From contig JAPDKB010000007.1 in NCBI GenBank assembly GCA_029258795.1, forward strand, positions 1 through 64,000: a stretch of 64,000 nt of DNA, written 5' to 3'. Position 1 is the stretch's first letter. Each line of letters begins with the position of its first letter. Position numbers and translations under genes: made by a program. This document shows, piece after piece, positions 39,536 to 50,485 of the stretch. Origin of the DNA: an archaeon (lineage in GTDB: Archaea > EX4484-52 > WAPT01). The notes under the pieces are model-generated. The model had not been told where the DNA came from. It searched no databases and saw only the letters and a list, made by a program, of their open reading frames with translations.

Positions 39536-41611
39536 TTATTTGATAAAGCACTTGATCATGTTACGCTTAGATGGCTTGAAAACAGCCACATTACCCTCAT
39601 ACACTTTATCATTTATACTTATCATCTCCACATCTTTCGGCATGATGAGTTTGCACTTACAGTTTGGCTTCTTATCGAACACAATCTCCATCTGATAAAG
39701 ATGTGAGAGCTTTGCAGCGGTCAAGCTGAAATTCTCACCCAGCATTCTCAACTTCCCACGCTTCCAGAACCGAATACCTGCGGGAAATTTGGGAGATACT
39801 ACTATGCAGTTTTCTTCCGCATCCACACCCATCAGGAAGCGATCAACTATGAACGGCACGAGAGACACGCTCCAGAGCTGAGCTCCCGCTCCGACCAGCT
39901 CACCTGTTTCGGAATTCCACGCTTCTCCCACAAACCCTATATGACCTCTATCCACATCCGCAAGCAGCTTTCTCAGCAAAATGATGCCGTGATGGAGTTC
40001 GCCGGCCATAAAGCACGTGGCACTTCCAAGCAATGTGGTGAAACCCCACGCACTTCCTCTGTGATAACTCCAGCTCCAGTATTTTGCATCGAGGTTAGAG
40101 AGTGTTCTTATTCCATAATCGCATTCGAGCTCCTCCTTCATCTTTCTCACGATGGCTTTGAGCTCGTGTTTTGTGTAAGCGCCAAAAAGTGCGGCTATCA
40201 TGCAGTTAGGAGTTACGGAAGCATCCACCACTCTCCCAAAGGAATCAAACGGATACATGAAATCGTTGTTCCAGTAAAACTTTCTGAACGCGGTTTCAAG
40301 CTCCTTCGAAAGCTTCCTCTTTCTGTTTCTCAAAGCCTTCCACCACATGGATTGAATTTCCACTGCTGTTGGCCCTCTGCTTATCGAGTCCATCCACGTT
40401 TCGTTTCCCTTGTGAATGACAAAATTCTGCTCCACTTCAAGCGATTTAAGCACTTTATTTTCCACATTCTTGATAAAAGGAAGAGCGATGCCACTGATTT
40501 TTTCGTATTCATCAGCCACAAGAAGGAAAAGCGGAGAAACATCAGCGCCATGATATAAAGCTTCCACATGATTAACATCCAATGTGAGAGTGCATGGCAC
40601 TCTGTTCTTGGTGTTCTTGGCTAACAGCTCCATAATTTTACCGGCTTCTTCGTCCATGCCGAGAGAGAGTAAAGAGAGAGCAGAAAAGAGATTGTCTCTA
40701 CCCCACATCTCGATAAACCATGGGTATCCCGAAATCAAATAAGTTCTATCATCCTTTTCATATAGAAATGAATCCATATTCAGGAGAGCGATCTTGAACA
40801 TCGTGTTGAGAGATTCATCATTGGAAATCAAGACGTTTCTCCTCAGAAGTTCGAGGACGTGCTTGACTCTTTCCTTCATCAGCTTTCTCCAGTCGGCTAT
40901 GCATGCATCTAAGCTATCGATCGCTTCCCTCTTTCTGAACCCTGCTGCCAGCACAAACGGTAAGTAGTAAGTTTCATGAGGAGCCAGTGTAAATTTCACA
41001 ACATAGCTTGCGGGCAAAAAGCATTTCTGTAGCTCTCCCGAAGGATAATGCTCTTTGTAATGAAGAATGGGAGTTATCTTAATATCCAGCGCCTCTTCCA
41101 TGAAATCACTGCCATAGCACGCATAAAGTCCATCATCACTCCTCACTATAACACTCTTTCTCTTACTTTCAACTTCAACATCATACTTCCTCAAATTGAA
41201 TTCTTCCTGCTTCCGTCTGATGTTAACTGCGACCTCTGCCCCCACCTCCACATCCCTTTCCTCATTACTCTCATTCGTGAACTTGAGAAGCACGACGAGC
41301 GAGTTCTGGTTTAAAGGCACGAAAAGAATCTCCTCCACCTCAACATCATCGTTCATACTGTTTTCAAGCCGATATTTGTGAGTTGCACTATAATAACAAT
41401 ATTTAGTTTCAGTTATATTCTGAGGAGAAAGCCACTCATCGTTGATCTTGAAAGCGAAATATTCGTAGAATTTGAATGGTGGCTTCCATATTCCACACCA
41501 CTTGTTCACAAATCCATTATTCGTGCATCGATAAAGAAACAGTTTTCTTCCTGAAAGGGAGTAAAATGATCGATGAATTTTCTCCCCTTTCACGACATAA
41601 TGCGGTAACAT
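39536..41611 (-). CDS. amylo-alpha-1,6-glucosidase (glycogen debranching enzyme)
   Basis: This enzyme hydrolyses alpha-1,6 branch points of glycogen. An N-terminal beta-sandwich domain (about 1-250) is followed by an (alpha/alpha)6 barrel with GYPWFIEMWGRDN, ETWMDS, YHRGSAWGF and GAGAQLWSVSLV, the usual GH133-type catalytic region (Glu/Asp in the WGRDN, ETWMD and late GEAW segments). The 691-residue length is typical of archaeal members. A TATA box 28 bases before the ATG and no Shine-Dalgarno site imply a leaderless mRNA that continues into the FBP aldolase/phosphatase gene. Confidence 0.93.
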   Translation of the reverse strand: MLPHYVVKGEKIHRSFYSLSGRKLFLYRCTNNGFVNKWCGIWKPPFKFYEYFAFKINDEWLSPQNITETKYCYYSATHKYRLENSMNDDVEVEEILFVPLNQNSLVVLLKFTNESNEERDVEVGAEVAVNIRRKQEEFNLRKYDVEVESKRKSVIVRSDDGLYACYGSDFMEEALDIKITPILHYKEHYPSGELQKCFLPASYVVKFTLAPHETYYLPFVLAAGFRKREAIDSLDACIADWRKLMKERVKHVLELLRRNVLISNDESLNTMFKIALLNMDSFLYEKDDRTYLISGYPWFIEMWGRDNLFSALSLLSLGMDEEAGKIMELLAKNTKNRVPCTLTLDVNHVEALYHGADVSPLFLLVADEYEKISGIALPFIKNVENKVLKSLEVEQNFVIHKGNETWMDSISRGPTAVEIQSMWWKALRNRKRKLSKELETAFRKFYWNNDFMYPFDSFGRVVDASVTPNCMIAALFGAYTKHELKAIVRKMKEELECDYGIRTLSNLDAKYWSWSYHRGSAWGFTTLLGSATCFMAGELHHGIILLRKLLADVDRGHIGFVGEAWNSETGELVGAGAQLWSVSLVPFIVDRFLMGVDAEENCIVVSPKFPAGIRFWKRGKLRMLGENFSLTAAKLSHLYQMEIVFDKKPNCKCKLIMPKDVEMISINDKVYEGNVAVFKPSKRNMIKCFIK

Positions 41612-41680: not shown

Positions 41681-41697
41681 TTTGCCATCACGGCAAA
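41681..41697 (+). promoter_or_regulatory. inverted repeat in the leader of the glycogen synthase gene
   Basis: TTTGCC-ATCAC-GGCAAA is a perfect 6-bp inverted repeat with a 5-base spacer, located between the divergent glycogen degradation and synthesis units. It is a candidate operator for a sugar-responsive regulator; alternatively it forms a small RNA hairpin in the leader. The role is inferred. Confidence 0.4.
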
Positions 41698-41744
41698 ATC
41701 GTAGCATTAAATCATCACTACCAAATAATGAACTCGTGATTTTT

Positions 41745-43589
41745 ATGGAACAGAAAGCTAAATTCGTGTTTGAGGTTTCTTATGAGGTGTGCAATAAAGT
41801 TGGGGGCATCCACACCGTCATTTCTTCAAAAGCCCAGTTCATGAAGGACGTGTATGGTGATAATTACATAGCAATCGGTCCATATTTTGAGGAGAAAGCA
41901 AAAATGGAGTTTGATGAAACAAAATGTCCACATGCATTTCTGGAGGAAGCCATAAAAGAGATGAAAGATGCAGGAATAGAATGCAAATTCGGTGTTTGGC
42001 GAGTGCCCGGCAATCCGTATGCTGTTCTGGTGGATTATCGTGCGGTCATGGATATCAAAAATGCTGTTAAGGGTAAGTTCTGGGAGCTTTACGGCATCGA
42101 CTCCATAAGATCTGGAATGGATTACGATGAACCCCTTATGTGGAGTTACGCATGCGGCATTCTGATAGAAAAAATGCTGGAGAAGATGAAGCACGATGAA
42201 AAAAAGAGAGTGGTGGTGCATCTCCATGAATGGTTGAGTGGCGGCACATTGTTTTACCTTAAGATGAGGGACATAGACGTGCCTGTTGTTTTCACCACTC
42301 ATGCGACCATGCTGGGTAGAACGCTTGCACACCATCTCCACAACTTTCATGAGGTGGTGGAGTCGGGATTAAAGGAAGGGAAAGTGGTTGATGAGAAGAT
42401 GGCATACAAATTCTGGATGGAGGCAAAGCACCAAACAGAAAGAAAGTGTGCTGAGCTTGCAACGGTTTTCACTACCGTCTCCGACACCATGGTTGAGGAG
42501 TGCATGTTCATTCTGGGGAGAAGACCTGATCTTGTTCTCCCAAACGGGCTGGATATGAGGAGTTTCCCTTCCATAGAAATGATCACATATTTGCATGTGA
42601 TGAATAAACAAAAGTTGCTGGATTTTGCAAGGGGATACTTTAGCCCGTATTACGAAATAAAAACGGACGGTACGAGATTCATATTCATCTCTGGAAGGTA
42701 CGAGTTCAGGAATAAGGGCATAGATATTTTCATTCGTGCTCTGGGGAAAGTGAACAGAATGTTGAAGGCAGAGGGGTGCAAAACGGATTACTTTGCATTG
42801 ATTCTGGTGCCTTCTGGAGTAAAGGCAGAACGTCAGGACGTGCTCGAGAACATCTCCCTTTATAGAGGTATAAAGGACTACATGGAAGAAATACTGGAGC
42901 GTGTGGAAGATAGATTCATGGATGTGGTGACAAACAGGAGAAAGGGCGACATAGCCTCACGCATAAGAAACGTGCTGACGGAGGAAGAGCGGTTGAAACT
43001 GAGAAAGCTTTCCCTCTCGTTCCAATCAAGAACAGAGGATCGTGCACCACTCACACCTTTCGTCTTGAATTACGAGGAAAAGGATGATATCATTCTCAAT
43101 GAGCTAAAAAAAGAAGGTCTTCTCAACAGAAAGGAGGATAAGATTAAGGTTGTGTTCTATCCTTCTTACCTCTCCATCACCGATCGTTTGCTCGGCATGG
43201 ATTACAAATCCGTTGTGATGGGTTGTAGTGTGGGTATCTTTCCTTCATATTATGAGCCATGGGGCTACACACCTCTTGAAACGGCAGCGTTGGGGGTTGT
43301 TGCCATTACGACTGATTTTGCTGGATTTGGTAGGGCTGTAATGAAGCTGGAGGAAGTGGATAAAGATGGTATCATCGTGCTGAAAAGAAAAGGTAAGAGT
43401 GATGAGGAGGTTGTGGAAGAGCTTGCTTCACATATTTACACACTTCTCAAATCTCCAAAGGAAAGAATAGGTGTGCTAAAACATCATGCGGTGGAGCTTT
43501 CCAGACATTTTGACTGGAATGTGCTTGGGTGGAGATACATCGAAGCGCATAATTTGGCGATTGATAAAGTGAGTAAGGAAGGCACTTAA
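41745..43589 (+). CDS. glycogen synthase, eukaryotic-type (GT3)
   Basis: A 614-residue retaining GT-B glucosyltransferase of the animal/fungal Gys type. It carries the acceptor-side loop FEVSYEVCNKVGGIHTVI, HEWLSGGTLFYLK, FTTHATMLGR, the donor domain start FIFISGRYEFRNKGIDIFI and the paired Glu in YEPWGYTPLETAALG. The long insertion between the two (about 380-480) is characteristic of GT3. The ATG at 41745 is preferred; a TTG 21 codons earlier overlaps the inverted repeat. It is transcribed away from the debranching gene and followed by the half-glycosyltransferase. Confidence 0.92.
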   Translation: MEQKAKFVFEVSYEVCNKVGGIHTVISSKAQFMKDVYGDNYIAIGPYFEEKAKMEFDETKCPHAFLEEAIKEMKDAGIECKFGVWRVPGNPYAVLVDYRAVMDIKNAVKGKFWELYGIDSIRSGMDYDEPLMWSYACGILIEKMLEKMKHDEKKRVVVHLHEWLSGGTLFYLKMRDIDVPVVFTTHATMLGRTLAHHLHNFHEVVESGLKEGKVVDEKMAYKFWMEAKHQTERKCAELATVFTTVSDTMVEECMFILGRRPDLVLPNGLDMRSFPSIEMITYLHVMNKQKLLDFARGYFSPYYEIKTDGTRFIFISGRYEFRNKGIDIFIRALGKVNRMLKAEGCKTDYFALILVPSGVKAERQDVLENISLYRGIKDYMEEILERVEDRFMDVVTNRRKGDIASRIRNVLTEEERLKLRKLSLSFQSRTEDRAPLTPFVLNYEEKDDIILNELKKEGLLNRKEDKIKVVFYPSYLSITDRLLGMDYKSVVMGCSVGIFPSYYEPWGYTPLETAALGVVAITTDFAGFGRAVMKLEEVDKDGIIVLKRKGKSDEEVVEELASHIYTLLKSPKERIGVLKHHAVELSRHFDWNVLGWRYIEAHNLAIDKVSKEGT

Positions 43590-43612: not shown

Positions 43613-44335
43613 ATGGAGGAGCAGGCGCTGAGCAGGAAGATCGCAGAGAAGATAATAAAAAGACTGGGTGTGGATGAGAAGGACATCGAATATGGAAAGA
43701 AGCCAAAAACAGTAGTGCTTATAACCCCTGATTTCTTTCCAAGAATGAGTAATGAGATAGCATACACAACTAAAGAAATTGCTCAGCATCTCGCCTCAAG
43801 AAACCTAAACGTGCATGTTGTGAGCTACGATCCGTGGAAAGCCGAGCAAAAAGAGAGTTTTGCAGGTTTTACCGTGCATTATGTCAACAATCCTGTGAGG
43901 GCATACTCCCCATTAACATGGACTCTCACCTTATCCATGGAAGTCAGCAGGGTCATTGCAGATATATTTCATGAGGAGGGCAATATAGACCTCATACATG
44001 CTCACGAATGGTTGAGCTTTCCTGCTGGCATTCATTTGCAGGCAGCCCTGAAAAAACCGTTGCTTGTAAACTATTACTCCATCGAACATATAAGAACACC
44101 GGGAGTATGTAATGGTTATACAGAGGCAGTAAAGCAAATTGAGTGGCTGGCGAGCTACGAATCAAGAAGAATATTTGTGAATCAGGAATGGTTAAAGAAC
44201 CTACTCCACATGCATTACAGCACGCCGTATGATAAAGTGAATGTCGTGAATCCGGAGGATAAGGAGTTTGATAGAAAAATTTTGCGCGATTACACATGGG
44301 TGATGAGGCAATGGAGAGAAATGATGGAGAAATAA
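43613..44335 (+). CDS. half-glycosyltransferase: N-terminal GT-B domain only
   Basis: The 240 residues align by eye with the N-terminal half of GT4/GT5 glycogen synthases: VVLITPDFFP, NEIAYTTKEIAQHLASR, IDLIHAHEWLSFPAGIHLQAAL, and NVVNPEDKEFD. The KVGGLG acceptor/ADP loop of the next gene is replaced by RMSNEI, and the whole C-terminal nucleotide-sugar domain (GR..KG, EPFGxxxxE) is missing. The reading frame is clean to its own stop, so it is not obviously a pseudogene. The stop overlaps the start of the following complete synthase by 25 bases. A regulatory or scaffolding partner is the best guess. Confidence 0.8.
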   Translation: MEEQALSRKIAEKIIKRLGVDEKDIEYGKKPKTVVLITPDFFPRMSNEIAYTTKEIAQHLASRNLNVHVVSYDPWKAEQKESFAGFTVHYVNNPVRAYSPLTWTLTLSMEVSRVIADIFHEEGNIDLIHAHEWLSFPAGIHLQAALKKPLLVNYYSIEHIRTPGVCNGYTEAVKQIEWLASYESRRIFVNQEWLKNLLHMHYSTPYDKVNVVNPEDKEFDRKILRDYTWVMRQWREMMEK

Positions 44336-45570
44336 CTGTGTTGCATCTGAGCTGGGAGTTTCCGCCTTTCAAAGTTGGAGGGCTGGGTACGCACGTTTAC
44401 AATCTGAGCAGAGCTCAGGCGAAAGTGGGGTTGAAGCCCATTGTGCTCACCTGCGGATTTAACGGACTCTATGGAAAGGAGGAAACGAAGGATGGCGTTA
44501 CCATCTACCGGATAAACGCGGACAACATTCCTGCTGAAGATTTTTTCTCTTGGGTTCTGCAGATGAACATGCTTTTGCAGATCGAGGCTGCAAGGATTTT
44601 CCGTGAGAACAGAATAAGCATAATTCATGCTCATGACTGGCTCGTGACCACGACAGCAGTTGCGCTAAAACACATATATCGTGTGCCGTTGGTGGGGACC
44701 ATCCATGCTCTTGAAAGCGGAAGGTATGGTGGGATAAGAGGAGATAGGCAGGTGTTGATTCATGATCTGGAAGCCAAACTTGTTTTTGAAGCGTGGCGTG
44801 TCATCTGCTGCTCCAACTTCATGAAGTACAGTGTTGTAAGCACCTTCGGCACGCCAGAGAACAAGATTGATGTCGTGCCCAATGGTGTGAATGCTCAGGA
44901 CTTTGACTTCGAGTTTGATGAGGAGGAGTTCAAATCAAGATACGCTTTACCCGATGAAAAAATCGTGCTGTTTGTGGGGAGACATGTTTGGGAAAAGGGT
45001 CTTGACATTCTGATGGGAGCTGTGCCGATGATCTTGGCAAAGCATCCTGAAGCCAAATTTGTGGTCACGGGAGACGGTTATCTTAAGCCCAAATGTGAGG
45101 AACTCGCAAGGCAGAACGCGCCTGAAGGAAAGGTGCTCTTCACGGGCTACGTGGACGATGACACACTCAAAAAGCTGATGAGAGTGGCAAGCGTTATAGT
45201 TGTACCCTCCCGATACGAGCCATTCGGCATAGTTGCTCTTGAAAGCATGGCGGCAAGAACGCCTGTGGTGGTGGCAGATACAGGGGGGCTTGGAGAGATT
45301 GTGGAGCACGATAAAACCGGCATAAAGGTGTGGGTGGATAATTCCGAGTCGGTGGCGTGGGGTGTCAATTACGTTCTTGATGAAGCCAACGCACAGAAGA
45401 TTAAGGAGATTGTGGATACCGCACATAAAATTGTCCGAGAAAAATACAACTGGGAATATATTGCTAAAGGAACAAAGTCCGTGTACAGCAGAGTGCTCGA
45501 AGAGTATGAGCAGATAACTTGGAAGCCCAGACCGGAAATATTTGGGTGGAGAGAAATTGAAACTGCGTGA
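44311..45570 (+). CDS. glycogen synthase / GT-B glycosyltransferase (GT4/GT5)
   Basis: A complete GT-B enzyme: WEFPPFKVGGLGTHVYNLSRA acceptor loop, IHAHDWLV, TIHALESGR, donor domain VLFVGRHVWEKGLDIL, and SRYEPFGIVALESMAA with both catalytic-loop glutamates. It resembles the archaeal GT5-like glycogen synthases that use ADP- or UDP-glucose. The ATG at 44311 has GGGTGA seven bases upstream; an ATG 15 bases earlier is possible. It is coupled to the half-transferase and shares the operon with a GT3-type synthase, giving two unrelated glycogen synthase types. Confidence 0.92.
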   Translation: MERNDGEITVLHLSWEFPPFKVGGLGTHVYNLSRAQAKVGLKPIVLTCGFNGLYGKEETKDGVTIYRINADNIPAEDFFSWVLQMNMLLQIEAARIFRENRISIIHAHDWLVTTTAVALKHIYRVPLVGTIHALESGRYGGIRGDRQVLIHDLEAKLVFEAWRVICCSNFMKYSVVSTFGTPENKIDVVPNGVNAQDFDFEFDEEEFKSRYALPDEKIVLFVGRHVWEKGLDILMGAVPMILAKHPEAKFVVTGDGYLKPKCEELARQNAPEGKVLFTGYVDDDTLKKLMRVASVIVVPSRYEPFGIVALESMAARTPVVVADTGGLGEIVEHDKTGIKVWVDNSESVAWGVNYVLDEANAQKIKEIVDTAHKIVREKYNWEYIAKGTKSVYSRVLEEYEQITWKPRPEIFGWREIETA

Positions 45571-45648: not shown

Positions 45649-46926
45649 ATGGTATCTGTTTGCTTCTACTTCGAGGTTCATCAGCCGCGCAGGTTGAAGC
45701 CGGGATGGAGGATAAAGCTGGAGGGAGTTGAAAGCTTTGAGGAGTTTGAGAAAGCGATATTTGATGAGGATACGAATGAAAGGATAATGAAAAAAGTTGC
45801 ATCCAAATGCTATCTCCCGACCAACAAGCTCATTCTAACTCTGGTGGATAATTATCGGAAACAAAAAAAGAAGTTCAAGGTTAGCTATTCTCTCTCCGGA
45901 GTATTTCTGGAACAGGCCCAGAAGTACGTTCCGGATGTTGTTGAAAGCTTCAGATGGCTGGCCGATACTGGCTGTGTGGAGTTTCTGGCTGAAACCTATT
46001 ACCACAGCCTCTCCAGCCTGTGGATCAACAACGAGCTCCATGATGAATTTGTCGAGCAGGTGGAGATGCACAAAGCCATGATCAAGGACCTGCTTGGTGT
46101 TGAGCCGAAGGTTTTCAGGAACACGGAACTCATTTTCAACAACGACATAGCCAAGGTTGTGGAAAAAATGGGATTTAAGGCGATGCTTGCTGAGGGGATA
46201 GAGCATGTGCTGAATGGCAAGAGTCCTGAGCATATCTATAAAGCTTACGGCACGAATTTGCCCGTTTTGCTCAGGCATTACAGGCTCAGCGATGATATAA
46301 GCTTTCGGTTTTCTGCAAGGTGGTTTGAAGCTTGGCCTCTAACCGCTGATAAATTCGCGAGCTGGGTGGCTGCATGTCAGGGAGAGGTCATAAATCTATT
46401 CATGGATTACGAAACGTTCGGGGAGCATCAGTGGGAAGATACGGGCATTTTTGAGTTTCTGAAACACCTGCCCTATGAAATTTTCAAGTATGAACATGTC
46501 GATTTTGTAACGATAAGTGAAGCGGTGCAACGATATCCCATTAGAGGCGAGATAGATGTGCCTGGATGGAGCACTATATCGTGGGCTGACCTTGAAAGGG
46601 ATCTCTCAGCATGGCTTGGAAATGAGATGCAGAGAATAGCTTTCAAGGAGCTCGAAAAGATAGGAAAGATGCTGAAGGAGAGAAACATCGAGGAAGCAAG
46701 AAGGTTGTGGCGCTACCTTCAAACATCGGACCATCTCTACTACTGCTGTACCAAACACTGGAGTGATGGTGATGTGCACAAATACTTCAGCCCGTATGGT
46801 ACGCCGCACGAAGCTTTTGAGGGTGTGATGAAGGTGCTCACCCATCTCCAGTATCTCATGAAAAAGAGTTATGAGGAAGATGAAGCTGATCTGGATGTAG
46901 AGGAAAAGGCAATGAGTGCGGAGTGA
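45649..46926 (+). CDS. GH57-family glycoside hydrolase (alpha-amylase-like)
   Basis: The GH57 conserved regions are visible: YFEVHQPRRL (region 1), the nucleophile Glu region FRNTELIF, GFKAMLAEGIEHVL, and the acid/base Asp in FMDYETFGEHQW. The product (425 residues) corresponds to the catalytic barrel of intracellular archaeal alpha-amylases or glucan-acting enzymes; no signal peptide, so it works in the cytoplasm on storage glycogen. A GGTG element precedes the ATG and an AT-rich box (aatataaatat) lies about 40 bases upstream, so it may also have its own promoter. Confidence 0.9.
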   Translation: MVSVCFYFEVHQPRRLKPGWRIKLEGVESFEEFEKAIFDEDTNERIMKKVASKCYLPTNKLILTLVDNYRKQKKKFKVSYSLSGVFLEQAQKYVPDVVESFRWLADTGCVEFLAETYYHSLSSLWINNELHDEFVEQVEMHKAMIKDLLGVEPKVFRNTELIFNNDIAKVVEKMGFKAMLAEGIEHVLNGKSPEHIYKAYGTNLPVLLRHYRLSDDISFRFSARWFEAWPLTADKFASWVAACQGEVINLFMDYETFGEHQWEDTGIFEFLKHLPYEIFKYEHVDFVTISEAVQRYPIRGEIDVPGWSTISWADLERDLSAWLGNEMQRIAFKELEKIGKMLKERNIEEARRLWRYLQTSDHLYYCCTKHWSDGDVHKYFSPYGTPHEAFEGVMKVLTHLQYLMKKSYEEDEADLDVEEKAMSAE

Positions 46927-46931
46927 TTGCA

Positions 46932-47300
46932 ATGGCTCTGGAGGTTTTGATTTCTGAAAGTGAAGACAAAGTGGAGGCGACAATATTCAGCAGAAAGGGG
47001 AATGAGTATGTTGATGTTCAGTTCGTTATTCTTGCAAGGTATGGTGGTAGTGAGGGGAAAGAATTGCTGGACATCCTCTGTTTTCAGGAGGAAGGTGGAG
47101 CGCAGGTTTCACCCATCTTTCACTATTACGCCAGCTTTGAGGATGAGTGTGGGATAAGGAAACTCGCTACCGGAATTTACAGATTGGTTTTGCCGAAATG
47201 CGCCGCTGATGGAAAACAACTGCAAGAGCTTGAGGTTGTGGGTAGTGCCGGCATTGTGCTGAAAAAAATAGAAGTTGGAAGAGTAAGAGGTCACTCATAA
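46932..47300 (+). CDS. hypothetical protein at the end of the glycogen operon
   Basis: A 122-residue soluble protein with beta-rich pattern ([67 protein letters not shown]). I do not recognise it; a small carbohydrate-binding or enzyme-partner role is possible from position only. The ATG at 46932 is six bases after the GH57 stop; a GTG three codons earlier overlaps that stop. It overlaps the convergent NDK gene by 10 bases. Confidence 0.65.
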
Positions 47301-47752
47301 ACCCAGTCAACATCGCATCGCTCATAGTTCAGAATTTCTGATTCGTTAAAAAACAGTTCGATTTCCCTTTTTGCTGTTTCAGGCGAGTCGGAAGCGTGAA
47401 TCAAATTCCTTCCTATGTCCATGGCATAATCATGCCTTATGGTGCCGGGCTCAGCTTCCTGCGGATTCGTTGCTCCGACCATTTTTCGAACACAAGCAAT
47501 GGCGTTCTTGCCCTCAACCACCATCGCCACGATTGGAGCAGAGGTTATGTAGTTGATAAGGCCCTCAAAAAAGGGCTTACCTTTGTGCTGTTCATAATGC
47601 TTTTCCGCAAGCTCATTCGTAACTTTCATCATTTTCATGGCAACAATCTTGAGACCCTTTTCCTCAAATCGTGTGATTATCCTGCCCATAAGGCCGCGCA
47701 TAACTCCGTCGGGCTTTATAAGAACCAGCGTCCTTTCCACACCCTCGCTCAT
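47291..47752 (-). CDS. ndk: nucleoside diphosphate kinase
   Basis: NDK transfers the gamma phosphate from ATP to NDPs through a phosphohistidine. The catalytic H119 lies in the signature NLIHASDS; other motifs are [24 protein letters not shown] and the terminal WVYE. The length is typical (153). A GAGGTGA site lies 7 bases before the ATG. It follows L24e, S28e and L7Ae as in many archaea; the aIF5B (infB) gene that usually continues this cluster is not present because the glycogen operon converges here. Confidence 0.97.
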
Positions 47753-47763
47753 GAAATGTCACC

Positions 47764-47970
47764 TCATTTCTTTCCTCCCTTGTGTTTACCCAGCCTCAGC
47801 ATCTTGTTCTTTCGATAGGCCTCAGTCCACCTGACCTTAACCGGATTTCTCATCTGAGCGTTCCTCTCGCACTTTGAACTGCAGTAATAAAACACAGTGC
47901 CATCATTCTTCACAAACATGGTGCCTCTTCCGGGTGGAATTTCCTTCCCACAAAACGAACAGCTCACCAT
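47764..47970 (-). CDS. rpl24e: 50S ribosomal protein L24e
   Basis: A small zinc-finger protein of the large ribosomal subunit with the four cysteines CSFCGKEI and YYCSSKCERN. The motif PGRGTMFVKNDGTVF and the basic C-terminus RLGKHKGGKK are typical; the length is 68. A GGGGTGA site precedes the ATG. Confidence 0.96.
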   Translation of the reverse strand: MVSCSFCGKEIPPGRGTMFVKNDGTVFYYCSSKCERNAQMRNPVKVRWTEAYRKNKMLRLGKHKGGKK

Positions 47971-48020
47971 TTCGTTTCACCCCACATTTCATGGTGTAAA
48001 CTTCTGAAAAATTAAAGGCG

Positions 48021-48215
48021 TCACTCGATTGTACCGACGGTCTCCATTTCCGGCTCTGCTATCATCAAAATATCGCCCTTTCTTACGGGCCCGAGTACGT
48101 TCCTGATTATTACCCTGTCCTTTCTTGGCCCTTCAAGCACTCTACACCTTGCTCTGGTAACGCCTTTTGACCCGCTTCTGTCAATGATTTCTATGACCTC
48201 AACAGGCACAGCCAT
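48021..48215 (-). CDS. rps28e: 30S ribosomal protein S28e
   Basis: A small OB-fold ribosomal protein (64 residues). The conserved stretch [17 protein letters not shown], the [13 protein letters not shown] segment and the acidic C-terminus are all present. A GGTGATG Shine-Dalgarno site lies 6 bases before the ATG. It is cotranscribed between L7Ae and L24e. Confidence 0.96.
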
Positions 48216-48236
48216 GAAACATCACCAATATCTGGT

Positions 48237-48617
48237 TCACTCATTCTTTTTGCCTCTCAATGCTTCAACTTCCTTGATTATTTCAGCCATCTTTTTCTCG
48301 GCTTTTCCCGCATCAACCACAGCAACGGCTGAGGCAGCTACTTCTATACCTGCGGCAGCCCCCAGCTCTTTCTTGCTGGGCACGAATGCATAAGGAACGT
48401 TCTTTTCCTTACAGAGTGGTGGTATGTGCATCACTATTTCTTCCGGATTAACATCCTCTGCCACCACCACAAACTTCGCAAATCCCCTCTCTATGGCTTT
48501 GGTTGTTTCGTTGCTTCCCTTCTTAACAACTCCACCACTTTTCACGATTTCCTCTATCAGATCGTAAATCTTTTCGGCAAGTTCCGCAGGAATCTGCACA
48601 TCCACATACGCTGGCAT
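48237..48617 (-). CDS. rpl7ae: ribosomal protein L7Ae
   Basis: This kink-turn-binding protein is part of the ribosome, box C/D and H/ACA RNPs and archaeal RNase P. The RNA-binding GSNETTKAIERG (about 35-46), the hydrophobic core FVVVAEDVNPEEIV and LGAAAGIEVAASAVAVVDAG are diagnostic. The ATG at 48617 is chosen for the GGTGATGAAC ribosome site; earlier GTG and ATG codons overlap it. A TATA box about 82 bases upstream gives a leader of about 55 bases with repeated UGAUGA boxes. Confidence 0.97.
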   Translation of the reverse strand: MPAYVDVQIPAELAEKIYDLIEEIVKSGGVVKKGSNETTKAIERGFAKFVVVAEDVNPEEIVMHIPPLCKEKNVPYAFVPSKKELGAAAGIEVAASAVAVVDAGKAEKKMAEIIKEVEALRGKKNE

Positions 48618-48619
48618 GT

Positions 48620-48650
48620 TCATCACCTCTTTTCATCAGCTCATCAAAAC
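48620..48650 (-). promoter_or_regulatory. possible L7Ae-binding (C/D-like) element overlapping the ribosome site
   Basis: The leader RNA just before the ATG reads, in part, UUUUGAUGAGCUGAUGAA and GAGGUGAUGAAC: three UGAUGA (box C-like) units and a CUGA (box D-like) unit within 30 bases. A kink-turn or kink-loop here would block the ribosome site on L7Ae binding, as known for other archaeal L7Ae leaders. The ribosome site itself contributes one UGAUGA. Confidence 0.4.
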
Positions 48651-48739: not shown

Positions 48740-50485
48740 TTATTTCTTCACTTTACTCTTACCTCCTCGATAACTTCCTTTCGCAACAATGACAGCAAGA
48801 GCTGGCACAACAGTGATGGCTGCGATGAAACACATCGCAACGCCGTAGCTCATCATCGCGCCCAGATCTTTAAGGATAGTTATGGTACCCATGCCCATGG
48901 CTCTGAAGCCTATCAAAGCGGCGAGCGTTGTGATCAGCATGGGGTAGAACGTTCTTTTGATTGCTGTTTCTGCCGCTCTTTCCACATCTCCGTTCCTGAG
49001 CTCCTGCCTGAAACGGTTCACCACCTGTATTCCGAAATCTATACCTATACCCATTATCATGGAGATGGCTCCTGATGTTGAGGGGCTTATATCCACACCC
49101 ATCAATCCAAACATTCCATAGACCCAGATCGTGCCGAACAGTATGGCCGCAAGGGAAGTCAGCCCGAATCTGACGGAATAGAGGATAAGGCAAACTATTA
49201 TCAGAATGGAAAGCAGGGAGATGGTTGAGGTTTTCCTCATTATTTCACCAACTCTCATTTTAATCTCGGTTCCATAAACAATACCCCCTCCAAGTTCAGC
49301 CACAACTCCGGGAGGAGCGGGCACATCCTCCACAACTTCCTCCAGTTCCTTTACGAGTTCAGCGCTCTGATCCTCGTTGAGAGCATAAACGGAAAGGTGT
49401 ATTACGGCTAATGTCCTGTCATCGCTGACATACCCCTTCAGGGGATCGGTTCTGATGCACTGGATGGTGTGCTTTTGTTGCGGAACGATGGTTGAAAGCA
49501 TGATTTCGAGCTGCTGTAAACCTGAGGAGAGGTTGACCAGAGCTTCTGAAACCATCATGCTTGCGTTTGCTGAAGCATTCATTCCCGCTGAAATCTGCTG
49601 GAGGGATGCGCTTATTCCCTCCAGAGCCATGGCCATTCCGTCCAGAGCACCGGCAAGTTCATTAAAGTGGTATCCGATGTTCTGAAACGCGTTCGTTATG
49701 CTGTTCAGATCGTCCTCAAGCTGCGCAAGCGAGGCAAGCATTGCATCCTTCTCCTGCTGCGAGAGGGTTGGTGATGTTGAGATAGCGTAATTAAGCGTGT
49801 AGAGCTGCACGTAAGCATCTTCCAGAGCTTTGGTATCCATCTTTCCCTCCCTGATGTTTCTGCTTATCGTTTTTAGTGTGAGACTGAGGGAGCTCAACCC
49901 GGCAGATATTTCAGAAAGGCCGTAACTCATGTTGAGCTGCGCTTCCCCAACTTTCTCCGAAACTTCAGAGAGCTGAAAGCCGGCTTCAGCAGCCTGATGA
50001 ATTGCTTCCTGCGGAGATGGTGCTGGCGGGTAGCATCTGATCTCGGAAGCGTGAATCGCCCTCAAAACGTCGGACTTGGCGGAGGGTATCGTGCCATTGG
50101 TGTACGGCAGAATGACATCCAGAATTGAGGAAGCGGAGTCAATGTAGGGATTGGTCAGCAACGCCCCCGTTAACCTGTCCATGTACCTGAGCACTGTCGG
50201 ATCCAGCACGTCGGCAGCGCCACTTCCATCAGCTTTCACAACCACATATACCGTGGAGGATGTCATACCGAACTCATCAATTATCGTGAACATCGCACCT
50301 ATCTCATCCACACTCTTGGGTAGCATTTCCTCATAATTCATCGACTTCGTTTTCACCTTGGATCCGGCCACACCCATCACGATCGTGAATATGATTATGA
50401 TTGCAAGTACCAGCTTTGGATTTCTTGCAAGGAAGCGTGCATAGGTCCCCACAGCTCTTGAAAACACACTTTCTTCCCCTCTCAT
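48740..50485 (-). CDS. RND/MMPL-type exporter, second half-protein
   Basis: A 581-residue half-transporter. One helix near the N-terminus (LVLAIIIIFTIVMGVAG), a large extracellular domain (about 50-400) with long Ala/Ser/Leu-rich coiled-coil segments (SYGLSEISAGLSSLSLTL), then five helices (ISLLSILIIVCLILYS, LAAILFGTIWVYGMFG, IMGIGIDFGIQVVNRF, MLITTLAALIGF, MCFIAAITVVPALAVIV). The Asp in GIGIDFG matches the proton-relay region of RND/MMPL proteins. It overlaps the preceding half by ATGA and has GGAGG eight bases upstream; the two halves should form one transporter. Confidence 0.88.
   Translation of the reverse strand: MRGEESVFSRAVGTYARFLARNPKLVLAIIIIFTIVMGVAGSKVKTKSMNYEEMLPKSVDEIGAMFTIIDEFGMTSSTVYVVVKADGSGAADVLDPTVLRYMDRLTGALLTNPYIDSASSILDVILPYTNGTIPSAKSDVLRAIHASEIRCYPPAPSPQEAIHQAAEAGFQLSEVSEKVGEAQLNMSYGLSEISAGLSSLSLTLKTISRNIREGKMDTKALEDAYVQLYTLNYAISTSPTLSQQEKDAMLASLAQLEDDLNSITNAFQNIGYHFNELAGALDGMAMALEGISASLQQISAGMNASANASMMVSEALVNLSSGLQQLEIMLSTIVPQQKHTIQCIRTDPLKGYVSDDRTLAVIHLSVYALNEDQSAELVKELEEVVEDVPAPPGVVAELGGGIVYGTEIKMRVGEIMRKTSTISLLSILIIVCLILYSVRFGLTSLAAILFGTIWVYGMFGLMGVDISPSTSGAISMIMGIGIDFGIQVVNRFRQELRNGDVERAAETAIKRTFYPMLITTLAALIGFRAMGMGTITILKDLGAMMSYGVAMCFIAAITVVPALAVIVAKGSYRGGKSKVKK

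Follow-up and report, generated by a model that had tools for sequence, protein, structure and literature searches.

In a DPANN archaeon we find a lone N-terminal GT-B domain, encoded directly before a complete GlgA-like glycosyltransferase, that we read as a conserved non-catalytic subunit of a heteromeric alpha-glucan synthase, with a probability of about two in three. The window, by which we mean the whole stretch of 64,000 nucleotides analysed, belongs to a genome of 1.17 Mb (96% complete) in a phylum with 34 sampled genomes. The two proteins are called the half and the full-length enzyme below, and their locus is given in Table 1. The upstream GT3-type synthase was called with a mechanical TTG start and has an in-frame ATG at 41745; the GH57 gene adjoins the full-length gene in most members of the phylum.

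Table 1. Features of the locus, in window positions
Feature	Position	Strand	Basis
Half: N-terminal GT-B domain only, 240 aa; predicted non-catalytic paralogue of the full-length enzyme	43613..44335	+	intact ORF; Pfam
Full-length enzyme: complete GT-B glycosyltransferase, GlgA/GlgM-like, 419 aa	44311..45570	+	Glyco_transf_4 + Glycos_transf_1
GT3-type glycogen synthase, directly upstream of the half	41682..43589	+	Pfam Glycogen_syn 2e-133
GH57 glycoside hydrolase (alpha-amylase/branching type), downstream, same direction	45649..46926	+	Glyco_hydro_57 6e-81
Amylo-alpha-1,6-glucosidase (glycogen debranching), divergent from GT3	39536..41611	-	GDE_C 3e-18
RMSNE, site of the lost K-x-GG-L loop in the half	43742..43756	+	alignment with full-length enzyme
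HAHEW motif in the half	43997..44011	+	motif comparison of halves
Overlap of half end and full-length start, 25 bases	44311..44335	+	sequence; same overlap in both congeners
KVGGL loop of the full-length enzyme, intact	44371..44385	+	sequence

Pfam matches the half only to families of the N-terminal GT-B domain (Glyco_transf_4, 8e-16; Glyco_trans_4_4, 6e-11). The donor domain Glycos_transf_1 gives no Pfam match in it, and the reading frame stops past the N domain. Alignment of the two proteins places FPRMSNE of the half against PPFKVGGL of the full-length enzyme. The original prediction of an intact frame encoding an N-terminal domain that has lost the KVGG loop is thereby confirmed. The half is more than a simple truncation, since one further conserved helix is found at its C-terminal end (assigned by DSSP as H220-234 in a relative's model); this helix may be the GT-B crossover helix. 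The losses are shared by all halves. The donor domain is absent from every copy, and the K-x-GG motif is found in 0 of 43 halves, while all 40 full-length partners and all 15 solo homologues retain GG. Of the 43 halves, 17 have another residue in place of the second His of HxHDW (Asn in 15, Gln in 1 and Val in 1), and in 25 the residue equivalent to His132 of the full-length enzyme is replaced. With donor domain and GG loop missing throughout, the half cannot be a usual GT-B transferase and is, judged by its anatomy, catalytically incompetent, as had been proposed. Part of its N-domain core is strongly constrained: Trp133, Pro149, Arg161 and Glu177 (numbering of the window's half) are invariant in all 43 halves, His129 is present in 41 (95%), and Tyr227 also reaches 95%.

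The full-length enzyme has the domains of a retaining GT-B glycosyltransferase of GT4/GT5 type (PF13439, 4e-31; PF00534, 1e-38). Its nearest solved relatives, GlgM (6tvp, 81 bits) and Pyrococcus abyssi GlgA (2bis, 78 bits), fit equally well. It stays below the cut-off of every NCBIfam glgA model (TIGR02149, the best-scoring one, 144.6 versus 302.4 bits; TIGR02095, 109.5 versus 328.45 bits) and is thus called GlgA-like only. GH13 (PF00128) has no match in the window's genome (G000) or in genomes G001 and G002. No GH13 means no GlgE, which speaks against a GlgE/GlgM route, and at 96% completeness this pathway is rejected for the window's genome. The lack of GlgE and the glycogen-gene neighbours make alpha-glucan synthesis the likely role of the enzyme. 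Of the earlier label "complete glycogen synthase", the complete GT-B architecture holds, while its identity as a glycogen synthase, like its exact reaction, is something we infer, given the tie between GlgM and GlgA and the missed cut-offs.

Both solved relatives are oligomers built through their N domains: P. abyssi GlgA forms a trimer via N domains and GlgM a dimer via N-domain helices arranged in a six-helix bundle (PMC11046441). These are homo-oligomers of complete enzymes, whereas in the proposed pair one partner would be a lone N domain. We modelled the pair of a relative (L072), with a half of 249 residues, 53% identical to that of the window, and a full-length enzyme 56% identical. Both L072 genes lie in one frame, so that a natural tethered pair results when the stop codon is read as Gly. 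For this chain, AF2 reached a pTM of 0.84 and a pLDDT of 83.7, where by our own estimate about 0.6 in pTM would be expected from the full-length enzyme alone if the half were freely placed. A control joining full-length enzyme and GH57 (L078), built likewise, gave a pTM of 0.56, an imperfect comparison as it is of a different size (837 aa) and its GH57 part is itself less confidently predicted. The L072 result represents one pair in a single tethered chain with few paired rows, and two of the five models had low pLDDT (66.5 and 64.0). With the fused model as query, Foldseek/VIA-align alignments covered the full-length part only. The heterodimer prediction suggested at the outset thus yielded a confident placement in one lineage, and its contrast with the control gives moderate support for a complex. 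That the complex forms in cells we infer from this model. As for the dead partner of a glycogen synthase originally envisaged, the maintained, constrained and paired gene is upheld; the physical association rests on the predicted structure.

A candidate contact site can be named. Full-length partners differ from the 15 solo homologues at Ser80, Trp81 and Ala93, all on one N-domain helix, and 84% of the halves retain a Trp (Trp103) matching Trp81; within the limits of 15 solo sequences, this hints at a contact helix. We propose that an old duplication of a GlgA-like gene would have produced a copy that shed its donor-binding domain and GG loop and retained the N-terminal Rossmann domain and the terminal helix. 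This copy would fill the place of an N domain in N-domain-to-N-domain contacts such as those of GlgM and P. abyssi GlgA, presumably through GlgM-like helices, so that the full-length enzyme would work as a hetero-oligomer with the half, instead of or besides a homo-oligomer. The retained face of the half may hold or position the glucan acceptor or set the oligomeric state. The gain for the cell could be a stabilised enzyme, a fixed oligomeric state or a held acceptor.

The phylogeny of the N domains points to one origin of the halves. In a quick tree, all 43 lie on one side of one branch (SH-aLRT 90). In a careful tree of 93 rows, the 37 halves included form one clade (98/89) and are on one side of the branch in 98% of bootstrap trees, and independent origins are not favoured. 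The groups of halves mirror those of the full-length enzymes, and the pairwise identities of the two correlate (r = 0.88 for all 780 genome pairs; r = 0.95 inside the phylum). This fits joint inheritance, as expected, and shared ancestry alone gives the same pattern. Solo homologues branch within the full-length partners, which hence do not form a single clade; either the half was lost in some lines or the pairs moved between lines.

Of 394 archaeal genomes sampled, 50 carry the half: 30 of the 34 in the window's phylum, a share that is not due to chance, and 20 others; the phylum members without it are incomplete MAGs (68-80% complete). It is also found in several other DPANN-type families and in four Methanomethylicia-type genomes, including Methanosuratincola petrocarbonis. 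Named contigs carrying it belong to Candidatus Parvarchaeota and to the Asgard archaea Candidatus Borrarchaeum yapensis and weybense. Thermoproteota and bacteria (Chloroflexota and Clostridium, for example) include full-length enzymes without a half. In every family except one (f5), the half lies directly 5' of the full-length gene in the same direction, and the pairing is therefore conserved across DPANN, Asgard and Methanomethylicia lineages, as a search for the same gene pair in relatives was meant to reveal. No fusion of the two was seen.

In the window, the half ends with the stop codon at 44333-44335. The 25-base overlap follows from a full-length start at 44311, which both congeners keep; an in-frame ATG at 44296 is a possible alternative. 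The overlap had been regarded as a design that favours equal synthesis and complex formation. It is real, but the gap between the genes varies from -41 to +186 bases across relatives (commonest, -4) and the f5 genes are unlinked, so coupling is not required. Since the half is retained where unlinked, its role cannot be solely that of a leader ORF or of translational coupling. Synthesis of one polypeptide by frameshift or read-through is unlikely in view of the different relative frames, the different stops across genomes and the unlinked f5 genes.

Among other explanations, the half could resemble plant SS5 and serve as a glucan-initiation factor, a putative binder of malto-oligosaccharide or the nascent particle that helps to start chains with only transient contact to the full-length enzyme or GT3. 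SS5 is an inactive, starch-synthase-like protein that takes part in glucan initiation alongside active synthases (PMC9168746, PMC9332351, PMC11772324). It lacks the C-terminal GT1 catalytic part (PMC9168746) and, in potato, the XXGGL motifs (PMC9332351), and it promotes granule initiation with partner proteins (PMC11772324). In addition, DPANN have GT3 synthases and no convincing glycogenin (PMC11046441), and GT3 is present in 48 of the 50 half-bearing sampled genomes versus 53 of 344 others, counts uncorrected for kinship. The four Methanomethylicia genomes, however, carry both half and full-length enzyme without GT3. Aid to GT3 is then not a general role, a half private to GT3 as a general rule is rejected, and the constant companion of the half is the full-length enzyme. 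On this balance we consider an initiation factor of the SS5 kind rather unlikely. Since an SS5-type helper exists and DPANN have no accepted glycogen starter, an attractive form of the subunit reading is a priming device of archaea without glycogenin, in which the dead half would hold the first malto-oligosaccharide, the full-length enzyme would elongate it and, in DPANN, GT3 would take over. We regard this version as doubtful. If true, archaea would have their own equivalent of SS5 and glycogenin, older than the split of the lineages carrying the half.

Two gene arrangements are worth recording here. A genome of 0.6 Mb (G037, L064:6998-8891) has half and full-length enzyme without GT3 and would be useful to separate the roles of the two synthases. 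Nanohaloarchaeal-type relatives have the order GT3, SIS-domain sugar isomerase-like gene, half, full-length enzyme; at one such locus (L052:6377-7540, + strand), a compact glycogen-synthesis operon, the intervening gene resembles glucose-6-phosphate isomerase by eye and overlaps the half by 4 bases.

It is improbable that the half acts alone in another process, such as sugar or nucleotide sensing, as a mere neighbour of the full-length enzyme. This explanation draws on family f5 (G006, G011 and G020), whose halves are unlinked from the full-length gene and under constraint (dN/dS 0.07). In this family the half has moved to a place after an ftsZ-like gene, as seen in G020, with none of the glycogen genes nearby, and is still intact (L058:5619-7641, + strand). 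The adjacency of half and full-length gene in DPANN, Asgard and Methanomethylicia lineages argues against it, and G006 and G011 still carry the full-length gene on another contig. The unlinked halves and G020, which has a half without the full-length gene in a genome only 57% complete, remain counterpoints to the subunit reading.

In Alg13/Alg14, a known case, two polypeptides share one GT-B function, and one of them contributes just the N domain. By the same logic the half might borrow the donor domain of the full-length enzyme or form a second, hybrid active site with it, and the HxH(D/E)W region, Arg161 and Glu177 are indeed kept. In Alg13/Alg14, though, the partner supplies only the C domain of a joint single active site, whereas the full-length enzyme is complete by itself and already owns an N domain. 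The loss of the GG loop in all halves and the frequent replacement of the second His of HxHDW and of the His132 equivalent also count against a hybrid site, which we think highly improbable.

Selection on the half is strongly purifying. For 13 close pairs whose synonymous sites are not saturated, some of them sharing a genome, NG86 gives a dN/dS of 0.018-0.076, lower than that of the full-length gene in 11/11 comparable pairs. The window's half shares 86% identity with its counterparts in two congeners; for the window's gene, synonymous sites are saturated (dN 0.094, pS about 0.9), and the low dN against this pS indicates constraint too. The overlapping frames and lost catalytic motifs could suggest a decaying pseudogene or a mere leader ORF for translation of the full-length gene, but dN/dS far from the value near 1 expected of decay, intact halves in distant lineages and retention where unlinked leave this with next to no probability, and decay is ruled out.

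Thus, being old and strongly preserved, the half is probably a helper subunit of a complete enzyme. Our search of the open literature found no prior description of such an archaeal pair, and the search on inactive GT-B partners returned no match. In GtfA/GtfB, an active GT-B enzyme is paired with an inactive protein of GT-B-like build. GtfB, however, has a complete GT-B body and adhesin proteins as its targets, while the half has lost a domain and belongs to a glycogen locus. The nearest analogue in the way it would work is SS5, likewise an N-terminal synthase part without the GT1 domain and with lost catalytic motifs. SS5 differs as a plant starch synthase working with several scaffold proteins, the halves being a separate archaeal clade usually encoded beside its synthase, and the two are likely of independent origin. 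The half is therefore probably an archaeal variant of a known theme, an inactive paralogue serving an active glycosyltransferase, in a partnership so far known for plant starch making. If the parallel is true, donor-domain loss would be a repeatable route from glucan synthase to helper. According to a 2024 review, a glycogenin-like starter in DPANN is questionable and archaeal glycogen regulation is mainly unexplored (PMC11046441). For the question of how glycogen is started and controlled in archaea, above all in tiny DPANN, this pair gives a concrete two-gene test system.

Further downstream in the window, an ORF of 125 aa (46923-47300) shares 4 bases with the 3' end of the GH57 gene and has no Pfam match. 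The congeners have a gene at the same site that is 32% identical, which indicates fast evolution for an operon member. A cluster on the minus strand (47291-48626) encodes nucleoside diphosphate kinase and then small proteins that resemble, by eye, ribosomal proteins L24e, S28e and L7Ae; such a cluster is ordinary in archaea. A gene on the same strand (48740-50485) encodes a 581-aa protein resembling an RND/MMPL-type membrane transporter.
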